Positions 1 through 5,744 of a stretch of DNA of 5,744 nucleotides are shown here, in pieces. This DNA is from Alphaproteobacteria bacterium (lineage in GTDB: Bacteria > Pseudomonadota > Alphaproteobacteria > Sphingomonadales > Sphingomonadaceae). Both the position numbers and the translations under genes were made by a program. The stretch is from positions 1 to 5,744 of the forward strand of contig JAGWVG010000123.1 in assembly GCA_018970965.1 (NCBI GenBank), in the 5' to 3' direction. Positions within the stretch are counted from its first letter, which is position 1. The number at the start of each line of letters is the position of its first letter. The notes under the pieces were generated by a model. That model worked only from the letters and a program-made list of their open reading frames with translations, was not told the DNA's origin and searched no databases.

Positions 1-1352
1 ATTTTGATCTGCTCATCGCCCGTGCGCATGCCTTGGGCCTGAAAGTGCTGATCGATCAGGTCTATGCCCATACGTCTGACCTGCATGATTGGTTTTCTGA
101 AAGCCGGGCCAGCCGCAGCAATGCCAAGGCGGATTGGTATGTCTGGGCCGACGCCAAGGCAGATGGGTCTCCCCCGAATAATTGGCAGTCCGTTTTTGGC
201 GGCCCGGCATGGACGTGGGATGCGCGCCGCGGCCAATATTATATGCACAATTTCCTCTCTACTCAGCCGCAGCTCAATTGCCACAACCCGGCAGTGCAAG
301 AGGCCTTATTGGGCGTGGCGCGCTTTTGGTTAGATCGCGGTGTTGATGGCTTCCGTGTCGATGCCATCAATTTTGCCATGCATGATCCTGCATTGACGGA
401 TAATCCTCCGGCGCCTGCAGACAATGGCGTGCGCACCCGACCCTTTGATTTTCAGCTGCATGTTCACAACCAATCGCACCCGGATATTCCGGACTTTTTG
501 AAAAAATTTCGTGCGCTGACGGATGGCTACAAAGGCATTTTCACGGTGGCCGAAGTCGGCGGTGCCGAAGCGCATCGTGAGATGAAGGCGTTCACTGCTG
601 ATCATCAACACCTCAACAGCGCTTATGGCTTTAATTTCCTCTATGCTGAGCGACTAACGCCTGCGATCGTGCGTGAAGCCTTGGAAGAATGGCCGGATGC
701 GCCGGGGATAGGCTGGCCGAGCTGGGCCTTTTCCAACCACGATGCGCCGCGCTGGATCAGCCGTTGGGCGCCAAAGGGGCATGAAGCCGCTTATGCGCGC
801 ATGGTCATGATGTTGCTGGTTGCGCTGCGCGGCAACATCATTGTCTGGCAGGGCGAAGAATTGGGCATGACGCAAGTCGATATTGCCTTTGAAGACCTGC
901 AAGACCCTGAAGCCATCGCCAATTGGCCGCTAACCTTGAGCCGCGATGGCGCACGCACGCCGCTGCCTTGGGTGGCAGATGCCCCTTATTGTGGCTTTTC
1001 AACTGCCAAGCCGTGGCTGCCATTGGGCGCGGACCACGCTGCGCTTGCGGTGGATGCGCAAGAGGCGGATCCGCAATCGCTCCTCCAGCTCACCCGGCGG
1101 TTGATCGCGCTGCGCCAAGCCCATCCCGCCCTCAAAACCGGCGGGCTGAAGGTTTTGGTCGCCAGCGAGGATCTGCTTGTCTTCACGCGAACGGACGGGG
1201 CGGACCGCTTATTATGTGTTTTCAACATGGGCGGTGTGCAGCGGCACTGGCAGCCTGAAGCTGGCGATTGGACAATTTTGGCGGAGGTTAATGGAGCCAG
1301 CCTTGGCACATTGCCGCCCTTTGGCGCGCTCGTCGCGTCGTGTTTGGCATGA
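1..1352 (+). CDS. GH13 alpha-glucosidase (5'-truncated by window edge)
   Basis: This is a retaining alpha-glucosidase of the alpha-amylase superfamily (GH13), probably subfamily 23, releasing glucose from maltose and short alpha-glucosides. The reading frame is open from base 3, so the gene starts upstream; the TTG at 33 is an internal Leu codon. About 449 residues are visible, against roughly 540 in the family, so about 90 N-terminal residues are missing. Seen directly: region I (IDQVYAHTSD, from about 51); region II GFRVDAINF with the nucleophile Asp at 360-362; region III VAEVGG with the acid/base Glu at 552-554; and region IV FSNHD with the stabilising Asp at 741-743. The stretch AMHDPALTDNPPAP just after region II resembles the GH13_23 alpha-glucosidases (for example Halomonas HaG). 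The C-terminal part (about 1080-1349) fits the small beta domain C. Cellular location cannot be read without the N-terminus; cytoplasmic is usual for this group. The stop overlaps the next gene's start. Family assignment is very secure; substrate preference is inferred. Confidence 0.95.
   Translation, partial: FDLLIARAHALGLKVLIDQVYAHTSDLHDWFSESRASRSNAKADWYVWADAKADGSPPNNWQSVFGGPAWTWDARRGQYYMHNFLSTQPQLNCHNPAVQEALLGVARFWLDRGVDGFRVDAINFAMHDPALTDNPPAPADNGVRTRPFDFQLHVHNQSHPDIPDFLKKFRALTDGYKGIFTVAEVGGAEAHREMKAFTADHQHLNSAYGFNFLYAERLTPAIVREALEEWPDAPGIGWPSWAFSNHDAPRWISRWAPKGHEAAYARMVMMLLVALRGNIIVWQGEELGMTQVDIAFEDLQDPEAIANWPLTLSRDGARTPLPWVADAPYCGFSTAKPWLPLGADHAALAVDAQEADPQSLLQLTRRLIALRQAHPALKTGGLKVLVASEDLLVFTRTDGADRLLCVFNMGGVQRHWQPEAGDWTILAEVNGASLGTLPPFGALVASCLA
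1349..1352 (+). promoter_or_regulatory. ATGA stop/start overlap, GH13 to GH97
   Basis: The TGA of the GH13 gene (1350-1352) overlaps the ATG of the GH97 gene (1349-1351). No good Shine-Dalgarno sequence lies just upstream, so translational coupling by terminating ribosomes is a reasonable inference. A weak AAAAGG (1352-1357) sits 9 bases before the alternative ATG at 1367 and could serve that start instead. Confidence 0.7.
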
Positions 1353-1432
1353 AAAGGATGATGAGGATGAAGCAGCTTATGGCCCGGTTTTTGGCAGTTC
1401 TGGCATTTTGCCTCGCCCTGCCTGCATTCGCT
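1349..1432 (+). other. Sec signal peptide of the GH97 enzyme
   Basis: Residues 1-28 from the ATG at 1349 have a short basic n-region with several Lys and Arg, a hydrophobic run (FLAVLAFCLALPAF) and an Ala-Phe-Ala cleavage site followed by Ala-Pro. This predicts signal peptidase I processing and a soluble periplasmic protein. The Cys in the core is preceded by Phe and does not form a lipobox. Starting at ATG 1367 would shorten the n-region to Met-Lys-Gln-Leu-Met-Ala-Arg but keep a working signal. Confidence 0.85.
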
Positions 1433-3403
1433 GCACCCCTGGCCAGCGTCTCGTCGCCCGACAACAGCCTGACGGTGTCGTTCGACATCGATAGTGATGG
1501 CCGCATCAATTACAGCGTCACGCGCAAAGGCCAGCCGCTGATCAACCCCTCCAAAATGGGCTTCTTGCTGCAAGATAGCTTTGCGATGGTGCGCGGTTTT
1601 GGCTTCGTGAGCCAAGAAGCCCGCTCAGGCGAAGAAAATTGGGAGCAGCCTTGGGGTGAACGGCGCTACATCCGTGCGCAGTATAATGAACTTCTGGTGC
1701 GCTTTCAGCAGAAGGAAGATTTTAAGCGGCTGATGAATGTGCGCGTCCGCGTGTTCAATGATGGCTTGGGCTTCCGCTATGAAATTCCTGATCAGCCGAA
1801 TTTAAAGGTGATGAAAATCGCTGAAGAGTTGACGGAATTTGCCATCGCGCAGCCCGGCACCGCGTGGTGGATCAATGGCGGCGAATGGAATCGCGAAGAG
1901 CAAATTTATCAAAAAACGCCAATCGATGCCGTCTCTACCGCTTATTCGCCGATCACGATGCGGCTGAACGATGGCACGCATTTGTCGTTCCACGAAGCGG
2001 CGATTGTCGATTATTCGGGCTATTGGTTCAAACGTCAGGATGGCCAGACTTTCCGCACCATGCTCGCCCCCTCGGGCCGCGACGCGAAAGTGATCCGGGA
2101 GACGCCGTTCTGGACGCCGTGGCGCACCATTCGCATCGCAGATAGTGCAGCGGGCCTCGTTGAAAACAATCTTGAGCTCAACCTGAATGAGCCCAATAAA
2201 ATTGGCGATGTCAGCTGGTTCAAGCCGCACAAATATATCGGGATTTGGTGGGGCATGATCACGGGCAAATGGACATGGGCCAGCGGCCCCAACCATGGCG
2301 CCACCACCGAACGGGCCAAGCAATATATCGATTTTGCCGCCAAATATGGCTTTAAGAGCGTGCTGATCGAAGGCTGGAACAAAGGCTGGGACGGCAATTG
2401 GTTCGGCCATGGCTATTATAGTTTCACCGAGGCCTATCCTGATTTCTATTTGAAGGCGGTGACAGATTACGCTCGCAAAAAAGGCGTGCGGCTGATTGGG
2501 CATCATGAAACTGGCGGCAACATCGCCAATTATGAAGCGCAGCTGGATGATGCGATGAAGCTGTATGCCAGTGTTGGCGTAAATGCAGTCAAGACCGGCT
2601 ATGTCGCAGATGCGGGCGGGCTGATTGCACCGGGTGATAAGCCTGGGGATATGGTGATGGAATGGCATGATGGCCAGCGGTCATCGGTGCATCACCTGAA
2701 GGTCGTAGAAACCGCCGCCAAATATCATATCGCGATCAACGCGCATGAGCCGGTAAAAGATAGCGGGCTTCGCCGCACCTACCCCAATTGGATTGGACGC
2801 GAAGGCGCACGCGGCATGGAATATAATGCCTGGGGCCAATATGCGAACTCGCCCGATCATGAGCCGACTTTGGTGTACACCCGCATGCTCGCCGGGCCGA
2901 TGGATTTTACGCCGGGTGTCCTCTCTCTCACGGGGGCCAACGGCGTCCACATGGCCTCGACGCTGGCGAAGCAACTGGGGCTTTATCTCGCGCTCTATTC
3001 GCCCATTCAAATGGCGGCCGATTTCCCAGAGCAACTGGTCAAATATCCGCGTGAGCTGGACTTCATCACCAAAGTCCCTGCTGATTGGTCGGAAAGCCAT
3101 TTGATCGCGGGGGAAGTGGGTGACTATGCAGTCTTTGCGCGCAAGGATCGGAACAGCGATAATTGGTATGTGGGCGGCGTGAATGATGCCGATCCGCGCA
3201 CTGTAACCGCGAAGCTGGACTTTTTGGACGCAGGCCGCACCTACACGGCGACCATCTATCGCGATGGCCCCGATGCGGATTACCGCACCGATAAGCGTCA
3301 CAGCATCGCCTATGAAACGCGCAAAGTGAAAAAGGGCGATGTGATTGATGTTCGCATGGCCCCGGCTGGTGGTTTTGCGGTGCGGATCGCAGCGGGGCGA
3401 TAA
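1349..3403 (+). CDS. susB: GH97 alpha-glucosidase, SusB-type, secreted
   Basis: A complete glycoside hydrolase family 97 enzyme of 684 residues, predicted to cut non-reducing terminal glucose from maltodextrins in the periplasm. It begins with a Sec signal peptide (basic n-region, hydrophobic core, AFA cleavage site). Next come an N-terminal beta-sandwich (about 30-285), a (beta/alpha)8 barrel (about 290-565) and a C-terminal beta domain (about 585-680). Barrel motifs match Bacteroides SusB: IGHHET (Glu387, codon 2507-2509), NAHEP (Glu467, codon 2747-2749), GREGARGMEY (Glu485 and Glu491, the latter codon 2819-2821), and AGPMDFTPG. The spacing of the last three glutamates (18 and 6 residues) equals that of SusB Glu508, Glu526 and Glu532, the base, a calcium ligand and the acid. 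SusB has VKSGYVG where retaining members carry a nucleophilic Asp; here it is VKTGYVA, so inverting hydrolysis is inferred. The ATG at 1349 was chosen for its ATGA overlap with the GH13 stop; ATG 1367 (678 residues) is an alternative, and the in-frame GTG at 1340 is less likely. Confidence 0.95.
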   Translation: MKRMMRMKQLMARFLAVLAFCLALPAFAAPLASVSSPDNSLTVSFDIDSDGRINYSVTRKGQPLINPSKMGFLLQDSFAMVRGFGFVSQEARSGEENWEQPWGERRYIRAQYNELLVRFQQKEDFKRLMNVRVRVFNDGLGFRYEIPDQPNLKVMKIAEELTEFAIAQPGTAWWINGGEWNREEQIYQKTPIDAVSTAYSPITMRLNDGTHLSFHEAAIVDYSGYWFKRQDGQTFRTMLAPSGRDAKVIRETPFWTPWRTIRIADSAAGLVENNLELNLNEPNKIGDVSWFKPHKYIGIWWGMITGKWTWASGPNHGATTERAKQYIDFAAKYGFKSVLIEGWNKGWDGNWFGHGYYSFTEAYPDFYLKAVTDYARKKGVRLIGHHETGGNIANYEAQLDDAMKLYASVGVNAVKTGYVADAGGLIAPGDKPGDMVMEWHDGQRSSVHHLKVVETAAKYHIAINAHEPVKDSGLRRTYPNWIGREGARGMEYNAWGQYANSPDHEPTLVYTRMLAGPMDFTPGVLSLTGANGVHMASTLAKQLGLYLALYSPIQMAADFPEQLVKYPRELDFITKVPADWSESHLIAGEVGDYAVFARKDRNSDNWYVGGVNDADPRTVTAKLDFLDAGRTYTATIYRDGPDADYRTDKRHSIAYETRKVKKGDVIDVRMAPAGGFAVRIAAGR

Positions 3404-3407
3404 GCCG
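3404..3407. other. 4-base gap between convergent genes
   Basis: The GH97 stop (TAA, 3401-3403) and the minus-strand photolyase-like stop (TAG, reading 3410-3408) are separated by four bases. No hairpin followed by a T-run is visible here on either strand. The only local inverted repeat spanning the gap is weak: GCTAA at 3407-3411 with TTAGC at 3422-3426. Termination must use another mechanism, or the transcripts run into the opposing gene. Confidence 0.8.
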
Positions 3408-4934
3408 CTAAAGATCCAGACTTAGCTGCCCGCTTCTGCCAGAGGGGGAGGCAGATCGGGCGGCCATCCCGCGCCGCGCCCTTGGGCCGGCGCGGGACCC
3501 GTGGCGCCGGAATACAGCATCCGCTTCTACCCGCGCCTCGGCCTGTTTGCGGCGCGTGAAAATCTGGTCTTTGGCAAAGGCGGTGGCCGTCTTGTGATCG
3601 ACAATCGGGGGCGGATAATGGGGCGCTGCCGATCGGTCTAACCGCCACGGCTCATGCACCAGCGCGCCTTTGACCTGTGCCAATTCTGGCACCCATTGGC
3701 GAATAAAGTTGCCCTTTGGGTCTTGATCATGCCCCTGCTTCACGGGCGAATAGACGCGCACGGTGTTGATGCCGGTTTCGCCCGATTGCATCTGGCATTG
3801 TGACCAATGAATGCCCGGCTCAAAATCTACAAATTTGCGCGCGAGGATCAGTCCTGCTTCCTGCCAGGGCAGCCAGAGATCATAGGCGGCGAAGGACATC
3901 AGCATCGCGCGCATGCGAAAGTTGATCCAGCCATGCGCAGTTAAGTATCGCATTGCGGCATCGATAAAGGGATAACCCGTGCGCCCTTCCGCCCAGGCTG
4001 CCAGCTTGTCGGGGTCAGCGGGCTGCGGCCGCATCCCAACATACATGCGCGCAAAGGGCTGGTGCTCAATCTCGGGCTCGCTCTCCAGCTTTTGGATGAA
4101 GTGACAATGCCAATGCAGCCGCGCGATGAAGGAACGCATGGATTGCGCCCATCCGGCACGGCTTTTATCGGAAGATGTGTGGAGCGCCATCAAGCGCCGC
4201 TCGGCCGCTTGAAACACTTCGCGCATCGAAAGCGCACCATAAGTGAGATAGGGCGAAAGCCGCGAACAGGCCTGCTCTGCCGTTACAGGCGACGACATTT
4301 CGCGCGTGTATTGCTGCCCTCGGTCATGCAGAAAGCTGGTGAGCAGCGTTATCCCCGCTTCTCGCCCCGGCGTTTGCAGAAATTGGATGCCATCAGGATG
4401 CAGGCCAAGTTCTGCATATGTCGGCAGGGGCATGCTCTGCGTGGCTGCCCAGTGGACGTGCGGCTGGATCAGCACGGGCTCACGCATCAGGGCTTCCCAC
4501 TGGCCCGCCCAGATATCGCGGTTGAGGCCCGGCCCGCGCAATACGCCAAATTGGCGGCGCTCGTGCCAGGTTATGCCTTGTGCCCGCGCCCAGCGTTTTA
4601 CGCGGCGGTCGCGCGCATAGGTCCAGCCATTGCCCGTTTCTTCATGTGACCAGAGCGTGAAAGGCCCATGGTGTTGGCGTAGGGCCTCTAGCACGGCCAC
4701 TGCATCGCCCTGCGCAATGCATAATGTGCCGCCTTGCGCGCGAATGGCGTCCGCCAAATCGGCGACGCAGCCGCGCCAAAACTCCCATTGGCGAAAGGAC
4801 GTGTCGGGCAATTGCCAATAATCTGGCTCAACAATGAAAAGCGGCAAAACGGGCCCTGCCGCCGCCGCCGCGCCCAGCGCTGCGTGGTCGGCAAGCCGCA
4901 AATCGCGCTTAAACCAGAGGACTTGCAGGCTCAT
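3408..4934 (-). CDS. Photolyase/cryptochrome family flavoprotein, EPGIHW variant
   Basis: A complete 508-residue member of the photolyase/cryptochrome family: a blue-light FAD protein, likely repairing UV photoproducts or acting as a light sensor. It has the usual order. An N-terminal alpha/beta antenna domain (about 1-135) opens with LWFKRDLRLADHAAL, and the helical FAD-binding domain (about 200-425) contains SRLSPYLTYGALS (224-236), RTGYPFIDAAMRYL (318-331), GWINFRMRAM (335-344) and a closing FIRQWVPELA. By eye, Trp275, Trp357 and Trp377 match E. coli PhrB Trp277, Trp359 and Trp382; no Trp aligns with Trp306. The loop DFEPGIHW (370-377) is three residues shorter than DGDLAANNGGW in PhrB and has no asparagine facing flavin N5. 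The C-terminus is Arg/Ala-rich and ends QLSLDL. The ATG at 4934 was preferred over an upstream in-frame ATG at 5012 because the conserved strand begins right after it and it overlaps the preceding stop as ATGA. Family is certain; CPD, (6-4) or sensory activity cannot be decided. Confidence 0.93.
   Translation of the reverse strand: MSLQVLWFKRDLRLADHAALGAAAAAGPVLPLFIVEPDYWQLPDTSFRQWEFWRGCVADLADAIRAQGGTLCIAQGDAVAVLEALRQHHGPFTLWSHEETGNGWTYARDRRVKRWARAQGITWHERRQFGVLRGPGLNRDIWAGQWEALMREPVLIQPHVHWAATQSMPLPTYAELGLHPDGIQFLQTPGREAGITLLTSFLHDRGQQYTREMSSPVTAEQACSRLSPYLTYGALSMREVFQAAERRLMALHTSSDKSRAGWAQSMRSFIARLHWHCHFIQKLESEPEIEHQPFARMYVGMRPQPADPDKLAAWAEGRTGYPFIDAAMRYLTAHGWINFRMRAMLMSFAAYDLWLPWQEAGLILARKFVDFEPGIHWSQCQMQSGETGINTVRVYSPVKQGHDQDPKGNFIRQWVPELAQVKGALVHEPWRLDRSAAPHYPPPIVDHKTATAFAKDQIFTRRKQAEARVEADAVFRRHGSRAGPRARRGMAARSASPSGRSGQLSLDL
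3468..3510. repeat. GC-rich overlapping inverted repeats in the 3' coding end
   Basis: CCCGCGCCG (3468-3476) is perfectly complementary to CGGCGCGGG (3488-3496). Inside it, GCC (3478-3480) can pair with GGC (3485-3487), leaving a tetraloop and one bulged C. The right arm also belongs to a second inverted repeat, CCGGCGC (3487-3493) with GCGCCGG (3504-3510), so the two hairpins exclude each other. No T-run follows on either strand, so this is not a standard intrinsic terminator. It lies within the Arg/Ala-rich tail codons of the minus-strand gene and about 65 bases past the GH97 stop. It may simply reflect high-GC codons. Confidence 0.5.
4931..4934 (-). promoter_or_regulatory. ATGA stop/start overlap between the two photolyase-like genes
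   Basis: On the minus strand, the TGA ending the upstream FAD-domain gene (4933-4931) overlaps the ATG of the downstream photolyase-like gene (4934-4932). The bases upstream of the ATG show no clear Shine-Dalgarno sequence. Coupled translation from one transcript is inferred. Confidence 0.75.
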
Positions 4935-5744
4935 TGTGGCAACAGACTGGGAATATGTTGGCGGAATGGGAAAAAGCCTTTTGTCGCCAGCGGCCAAGCG
5001 GCGATGTCCCACGCGCGCTGGACTTGGTGTAAACGCATTCCATGCGCCGTGGCTTGCTCTGCAAGCGCATTTAAGCGGGTGGCTATCGGCCCAATAGGGG
5101 CATAGGCTGTTACGATATGCTCTGATCCCAGCGTGCGGGCATGTTCAATCAGCCCTTCTGCGTCGATCAATGGGGCGTCCCTGCCAAAATGGGCGGCAGC
5201 GCGTGTCAGGCCGTCAGCCAAGGCCTCTTGCCGAAACGCTGCAACGCGGGGCGACAGGCCGTCGGTTTGCACGCGTAAGCCAGCAATTGCCAAGACATGC
5301 TGTGCGTTGATCGGGAGGCTTTCTGCCTGAAGATCTTCTTCAGTCAGCAACAAAAGGCATGGCGCGTCTGGCAGAGGAGAGGGTGGTGTCAGCGCTTGAG
5401 GTGCGGGGTTTGGGACAGGTGCCGGTGCAGGGCCGTGGTGCAGCGGCGCGGGTGCGAAACGGCCTTGAGTGAAGGTGGTGATATTTTCGGCTGTTGCCAG
5501 ATAGGTTTTGCCCGGCGTCTGCAAGCCAGCAACCCAGCGCCAACTGAGCGTGTTGGATGCAGGGTCACCATCAAGCAGATGATTGAGGAAAAAGTCTGCC
5601 CCCAACTGCCAAGGCAGGCCCAAAGTGAAAATCCAGATGCTTGCAAACCACATCCGCGCATGATTGTGGAGATAGCCAGTCGTTATCAATTCGCGTGCCC
5701 AATGGTCAAAACAGGCAATGCCCGACTGCCCTGCCATTGCGGCC
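4931..5744 (-). CDS. Photolyase-like protein, FAD domain then C-terminal alpha/beta domain (5'-truncated)
   Basis: The C-terminal 270 residues of a photolyase/cryptochrome-family flavoprotein; the frame is open to the window edge, so the start lies beyond it. The Met codon at 5737-5735 falls inside the FAD domain and is not the start. Numbering from that Met, residues 1-93 are the end of the FAD-binding domain: TTGYLHNHARMWFAS with Asn25 (PhrB Asn341), LPW with Trp43 (Trp359), and LLDGDPASNTLSWRW with Asn62 (Asn378), Trp66 (Trp382) and Trp68 (Trp384). The flavin site therefore looks canonical. A Pro/Ala-rich linker follows (about 94-126). Residues 127-258 form an alpha/beta domain that resembles, by eye and in the same order, the antenna domain that normally comes first in photolyases. 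The FAD part recalls bacterial short photolyase-like proteins (SPL/NewPHL), which lack an N-terminal antenna domain. Its stop overlaps the downstream photolyase-like gene, suggesting joint expression. FAD-domain identity is secure; the C-terminal domain assignment is inference. Confidence 0.9.
   Translation of the reverse strand, partial: AAMAGQSGIACFDHWARELITTGYLHNHARMWFASIWIFTLGLPWQLGADFFLNHLLDGDPASNTLSWRWVAGLQTPGKTYLATAENITTFTQGRFAPAPLHHGPAPAPVPNPAPQALTPPSPLPDAPCLLLLTEEDLQAESLPINAQHVLAIAGLRVQTDGLSPRVAAFRQEALADGLTRAAAHFGRDAPLIDAEGLIEHARTLGSEHIVTAYAPIGPIATRLNALAEQATAHGMRLHQVQRAWDIAAWPLATKGFFPFRQHIPSLLPQ
4964..5359 (-). other. Putative relocated photolyase alpha/beta (antenna-type) domain
   Basis: This is a sub-region of the truncated upstream gene. 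It starts with a hydrophobic strand and an acidic-Leu turn (CLLLLTEEDLQAESL), then VLAIAGLRVQTDG, then a long helix with AAFRQEALADGLTRAAAHFG. These line up with LWFKRDLRLADH, VLPLFIVEPDYW and FRQWEFWRGCVADLADAIR at the N-terminus of the downstream gene. Later, HARTLGSEHIVTAYAPIG plus a helix and HGMRLHQVQRAWD match LEALRQHHGPFTLWSHEETG plus a helix and QGITWHERRQFG. The segment ends with AWPLATKGFFPFRQHIP, recalling the motif that closes the antenna domain. The alignment was made by eye without statistics. Confidence 0.55.
5360..5458 (-). other. Pro/Ala-rich interdomain linker
   Basis: About 33 residues between the FAD-binding domain and the C-terminal alpha/beta domain are dominated by Pro and Ala (APAPLHHGPAPAPVPNPAP and on to PPSPLPDAP). 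Such composition is typical of an extended flexible linker and marks the domain boundary. Confidence 0.75.

Follow-up and report, generated by a model that had tools for sequence, protein, structure and literature searches.

We analysed a Sphingomonadaceae contig of 5,744 nucleotides (JAGWVG010000123.1, our contig C61; hereafter the window) from a genome assembly of 1.97 Mb in 379 contigs that is 95% complete (GCA_018970965.1). At one end of the window, on the minus strand, lies a photolyase gene whose open frame of 270 codons (4931-5743, TGA at 4931-4933) is truncated by the contig end. An earlier note on this DNA, made from the sequence alone, had proposed that the protein carries its domains in inverted order, with the flavin adenine dinucleotide (FAD) domain followed by a linker and then a domain of the antenna type, which in classical photolyases comes first. 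The features concerned are the following.

5453..5743, minus strand: C-terminal stretch of the catalytic FAD domain in the likely NewPHL-type photolyase, from PF03441 and the PhrB alignment; open at the contig end
5375..5452, minus strand: Pro/Ala-rich interdomain linker, residues 98-123, with 16 of 26 residues P or A in the translation
4934..5374, minus strand: C-terminal antenna-like domain (the 'Z-domain' of the literature), residues 124-270 (147 residues)
4931..4934, minus strand: ATGA overlap of the photolyase TGA stop with the ATG start of the next gene, from the junction sequence
3408..4934, minus strand: neighbouring photolyase/cryptochrome-type gene, 508 amino acids, with PF00875 then PF03441 in the conventional order, from Pfam

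The FAD domain is matched in Pfam by PF03441 (FAD_binding_7) over residues 4-82 (E = 9.1e-18), and residues 4-83 align without gaps with Escherichia coli PhrB 318-397. The translation contains HNHARMW and SNTLSWRW, and the earlier note's recognition of the end of a canonical FAD domain from these motifs is thus borne out, as is the Pro/Ala linker that it placed behind them. In the PhrB register, N27, M31, W45, N64, W68 and W70 of the window protein correspond to PhrB 341, 345, 359, 378, 382 and 384. Among 81 aligned sequences, the residues at PhrB positions N341, R344, M345, W359, D372, N378, W382 and W384 are identical to PhrB in all 81, and the D374 position has Asp in 78. The invariant N64 is the flavin-facing Asn on the N5 side, which is described as retained in NewPHL proteins (PMC12083526). 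A Trp dyad in place of the triad has been described for the class (PMC8948257), and the two Trp W45 and W68, present in all 81 sequences, are consistent with it; every column across residues 94-113 of the full-length homologue L027 has Trp in at most 8 of 80 sequences. In the N-terminal half, a Glu and a Trp (L027 residues 75 and 78) are conserved in 80 of 80 full-length rows. We take these to be PhrB E274 and W277.

The C-terminal 147-residue domain has a confident predicted fold. In a VIA-align comparison, the model of the window's own domain is colinear with the antenna domains of solved photolyases: photolyase-family chains make up 34 of the 50 rows listed, and 31 of these align 135-145 of the 147 residues (for 5kcm, 6x24 and 8z3g, the chain range extends beyond the antenna domain). 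The other 16 rows, 11 of them titled universal stress proteins, align 102-126 residues, and only three extend past model residue 131. By Z alone the two groups tie, whereas Foldseek TM-scores by query are 0.52-0.67 in the 34 photolyase-family rows listed and 0.22-0.51 in the 16 others. From the model, the domain is therefore predicted to fold like an antenna domain, with the structural elements following in unchanged order, and no unrelated fold among the rows listed matches it better.

The sequence of this domain is far less informative. The 147 residues gave nothing above any cut-off in Pfam or NCBIfam, and the PF00875 match that the earlier note expected after the linker did not appear: there is none in the window piece, and only 3 of 81 family members match at E up to 0.1 (best 0.0021), while PF04273 (BLH_phosphatase) matches five of the 81 (best 8.5e-4). 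Against an antenna domain, BLASTP reached E = 5.1 at best and hhalign profile-profile comparison a probability of 5.0, with 0.43, 0.08, 2.4 and 0.09 in further runs. In hidden Markov model (HMM) searches, a Z-domain profile run against antennas gave 85 matches, 26 of them to reversed decoys (best E 0.035); an antenna profile run against Z-domains gave 29, 2 of them to decoys (best 0.055), and a classical antenna profile 67, 4 of them to decoys (best 0.02). With Pfam, NCBIfam, hhalign and HMM searches all weak or null, sequence-level proof that this is an antenna domain was set aside, and it is therefore the predicted structure that carries the antenna-fold assignment. The colinearity with the neighbouring gene's antenna domain claimed in the earlier note is not supported by sequence; predicted structure supports it, in a comparison with the antenna domains of solved photolyases.

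These comparisons bear on two other explanations of the C-terminal stretch. One is that a short FAD core became joined to an alpha/beta domain that is Rossmann-like but has a different origin (resembling universal stress proteins or nucleotidyltransferases), so that the antenna likeness is convergent and the protein is not evolutionarily permuted. We consider this unlikely given the longer coverage and higher TM-scores of the photolyase rows, the PF00875 matches in three members and the small number of decoys with both antenna profiles, even with the many decoys of the Z-domain profile. The other is that the stretch is a degenerate remnant, an option that the earlier note had raised, or an artefact of annotation or assembly. 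The contig end does cut the gene, but the domain has a mean identity of 38% to 80 relatives and near-invariant residues (D14, P93, G95, R120, D123, W127, P128, G133, F134 and F135 in its own alignment numbering), none of 15 full-length matches in the family has a stop codon inside, and the predicted fold is confident. Because the domain is conserved, a degenerate remnant is unlikely, and we regard a remnant or artefact as exceedingly improbable.

Whether an antenna domain also precedes the FAD domain depends on the part of the gene beyond the contig end. When the first 111 residues of a homologue were searched against the genome, a single place matched, on a second contig (C132:3529-3828; 59% identical, E = 7.1e-37). 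The frame there has an ATG at L110:1462 and an in-frame TAA three codons upstream (L110:1453-1455), opens directly with FAD-domain sequence and continues off the end of the 3845-base contig. We read the two pieces as one gene because both lie at contig ends and the genome gave a single match; if they are, this suggests a protein of about 390 residues with no antenna domain in front, in keeping with the earlier note's reading. Of the matches in the host genome, the single one to PF00875 falls in the neighbouring gene and the two to PF03441 both fall within the window. The start stands next to the FAD domain in 90 of 94 homologous loci, with starts assigned by a rule of our analysis, and the proteins have 370-427 amino acids. 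In a homologue model, residues 1-220 align with PhrB 200-464, model residue 1 falling at PhrB 200; comparisons of full models aligned mainly the FAD domain. PF03441 is the sole Pfam family above cut-off in all five full-length homologues scanned.

Two established photolyase types were considered and rejected. The classical class I or DASH layout, with PF00875 at the N-terminus and then the FAD domain, does not fit a gene with no antenna before its FAD domain (a fragment does not allow the cut-offs of the NCBIfam DASH and class I models to be judged). The FeS-BCPs, prokaryotic (6-4) photolyases, are recognized by PF04244 together with four Fe-S cysteines. PF04244 has no match at E up to 10 in the window piece or at E up to 1 in any of five full-length homologues, and the PF04244 gene of the host genome is a separate one on contig C336. 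The window piece holds two cysteines and the 5' piece one, the few residues in the contig gap being unseen; as an Fe-S cluster needs four, the gene agrees with the NewPHL class in having no Fe-S cysteines.

The arrangement recurs widely. Of 99 genomes from the same family, 15, counting the window's own, have a homologue over essentially all 270 residues, at 44-55% identity in the other 14, and the arrangement is therefore not a chance reading. A scan of species genomes found at least 564 encoding stretches; the best 80, which were retained, come by record title mostly from alphaproteobacteria, with some gammaproteobacteria and actinobacteria, one cyanobacterium and one Eremiobacterota, and many are metagenome-assembled. 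In protein searches with the homologues L027 and L066, which list the best 120 among 7998 scored candidates and do not measure family size, all 120 for L027 cover at least 95% of the query and have PF03441 as their sole precomputed Pfam entry; for L066, PF03441 is the sole entry in 119 of 120. Over 269 residues, and through the C-terminal domain, the window protein shares 50% identity with P0216 (E = 9e-75), a protein that one source names Methylobacterium mesophilicum. A 469-residue homologue, P0163, carries PF13628 in addition to PF03441 and may be a fusion or have a misplaced start. At E up to 1e-40, eight plasmid records hold homologues, all on replicons of at least 244 kb (seven non-mobilizable and one conjugative in PLSDB), and four phage records match in just 40-44% of the query at 29-30% identity. 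These records give no sign of the gene moving with plasmids or phages, though no further test was made.

Taken together, we estimate a probability of about 0.92 that the window gene, with its FAD domain first and its antenna-like domain (by predicted fold) last, belongs to the NewPHL or short photolyase-like (SPL) class and repairs cyclobutane pyrimidine dimers (CPDs) in single-stranded DNA with blue light. Several points weigh against this. The two gene pieces stand unjoined at the ends of two contigs, so that their continuity is inferred; by sequence, the C-terminal domain shows no significant homology to PF00875; and the PhrB R342 position has His in 80 of 81 aligned sequences, unlike PhrB. 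A further Trp at L027 residue 93 (76 of 80 sequences) lies near the dyad and may or may not correspond to PhrB W306. The features of the class are taken from citing papers and not from the class-defining ones, and P0216 may differ from the characterised M. mesophilicum protein M7YZC8. The earlier note's observation of an inverted-order photolyase was sound and right on the architecture, and its reading is supported, whether the protein is a circularly permuted photolyase or a short core that may have regained an antenna-type domain; such a layout had, however, been published before.

From the literature on the class and the conserved residues, excited reduced FAD (FADH-) would inject an electron into the CPD, split the dimer and regain the electron, and photoreduction of the FAD would proceed through the two conserved Trp, W45 and W68. 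The C-terminal domain may close the flavin side of the core rather than harvest light. The paper on the NewPHL class reportedly describes the C-terminal domain as shielding the flavin. The photolyase may also be co-translated with the next gene as one unit of the UV response.

This next gene encodes a protein matched by both PF00875 (E = 8.7e-24) and PF03441 (E = 1.1e-61) in Pfam, over a longer frame (3408-5012), and its closest named proteins, from a Sphingomonadaceae bacterium and Chakrabartia sp., are 89% identical. Among 90 homologous loci, chosen as best matches rather than at random (L003 and L040 carry the same gene), 13 have a same-strand relative of the neighbour, 41-55% identical, no more than 460 bases from the photolyase gene as measured from the aligned start; it follows the photolyase gene in eight and precedes it in five. 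This count leaves out an opposite-strand gene of 29.7% identity in L027, and with about 1.1 kb of flank in the loci from the 99-genome family search, some neighbours may be missed. The ATGA overlap recurs at two of four junctions inspected (L031 and L090). The neighbour family (E up to 1e-60) is found in 4 of the 99 family genomes, and in three of these the photolyase gene occurs as well. Only in the window's genome do the two lie side by side; in G040 they are separated by 126 kb and in G020 they sit on separate contigs, and the pair is therefore not obligatory.

The neighbour has a rebuilt flavin site. Its homologues read I-H-W in the region of PhrB 378 in 120 of 120 matches listed, its own entry included, and the copy in the window has Cys at PhrB 382 and Met at 384, so that the usual flavin-site motif is lost. 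Aligned with 13 relatives, it shares His at 378, with Cys, Val, Thr, Ala or Leu at 382. In a limited literature search by title we found no named class for this I-H-W protein, and the coupled neighbour may be a more useful lead than the photolyase itself. The overlap and the 13 loci, which show both gene orders between them, would also suit a reading in which the window photolyase does no repair itself and serves as a light sensor or as a partner subunit for its neighbour. The CPD photolyase core residues conserved throughout the 81 sequences, the Glu and Trp of the N-terminal half and the non-obligatory pairing in the family genomes count against this, and we hold it to be very unlikely. Distinctly unlikely, too, is a broader proposal that NewPHLs are true circular permutations at the level of domains, the Z-domain being the antenna moved to the C-terminus, and that in this genome one works as a translationally coupled unit with another flavoprotein, which through its changed flavin site (His for Asn378, Cys for Trp382) would act as a sensor or an electron partner instead of repairing DNA.

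Other genes also accompany the photolyase. A PF04244-type gene lies near it in 9 of 77 loci by BLAST, four of them (L103, L083, L100 and L106) confirmed in Pfam. In L083, L095 and L100, three photolyase-family genes follow in a row on one strand (neighbour relative, NewPHL gene, PF04244-type gene), and the PF04244-type open frame starts right after the NewPHL stop (by Pfam in L083 and L100, by BLAST only in L095). A gene for a DCC1-like thiol-disulfide oxidoreductase (PF04134, checked in L042 only) shares its strand with the NewPHL gene in 11 of 77 loci (L037, L039, L042, L050, L054, L056, L082, L091, L099, L105 and L106), directly upstream in all except L050. On the plus strand of the window, a 5'-cut gene for an alpha-amylase family protein (3-1352) and a glycoside hydrolase gene of family GH97 (1340-3403) share 13 bases, provided that the first GTG serves as start; they meet the photolyase pair tail to tail with 4 bases between. 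An Rfam search of the window gave no matches, and 3380-5744 holds two promoter-like and two terminator-like sequences, against shuffled means of 0.8 and 2.6.

Among known systems, the inverted layout is already published for the NewPHL class (PMC9426592), and the window gene is therefore a further, ordinary relative of it; that such photolyases are ordinary and widespread is here confirmed from one raw window. As the class is described (PMC9426592, PMC13274461, PMC9649867, PMC9178010), the gene resembles it in its N-terminal FAD domain, absence of an N-terminal alpha/beta domain, C-terminal Z-domain and retained flavin-facing Asn, and its relatives, of 370-427 amino acids, are mostly alphaproteobacterial; activity aside, nothing was found that sets it apart. 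NewPHLs of Dinoroseobacter shibae and M. mesophilicum repair CPDs in single-stranded DNA (PMC9426592, PMC13274461), the latter characterised as UniProt M7YZC8 (PMC13274461). Phr7 of Prochlorococcus has an N-terminal FAD domain and a C-terminal Z-domain without Fe-S cysteines (PMC9426592), the same order as here by its description, in a cyanobacterium. Phr4/Phr5 and Phr6 of marine Synechococcus/Cyanobium also have the FAD and photolyase domains inverted (PMC9426592), but differ in their Fe-S cysteines and proposed (6-4) photolyase activity, the pieces of the window gene holding three cysteines in all. SPLs have been proposed to stand near the origin of the photolyase family, as repeated in PMC9498864, and the predicted antenna fold, with its elements in unchanged order, is relevant to whether the permuted form came first or arose later, a live question in the citing papers. 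The gene shares with the class I CPD photolyase PhrB of E. coli the fold of the FAD domain and the active-site residues, but PhrB has its antenna domain first, whereas the window gene has none before the FAD domain and its antenna-like domain last. The class was reportedly defined by Emmerich et al. 2020 and Xu et al. 2021.
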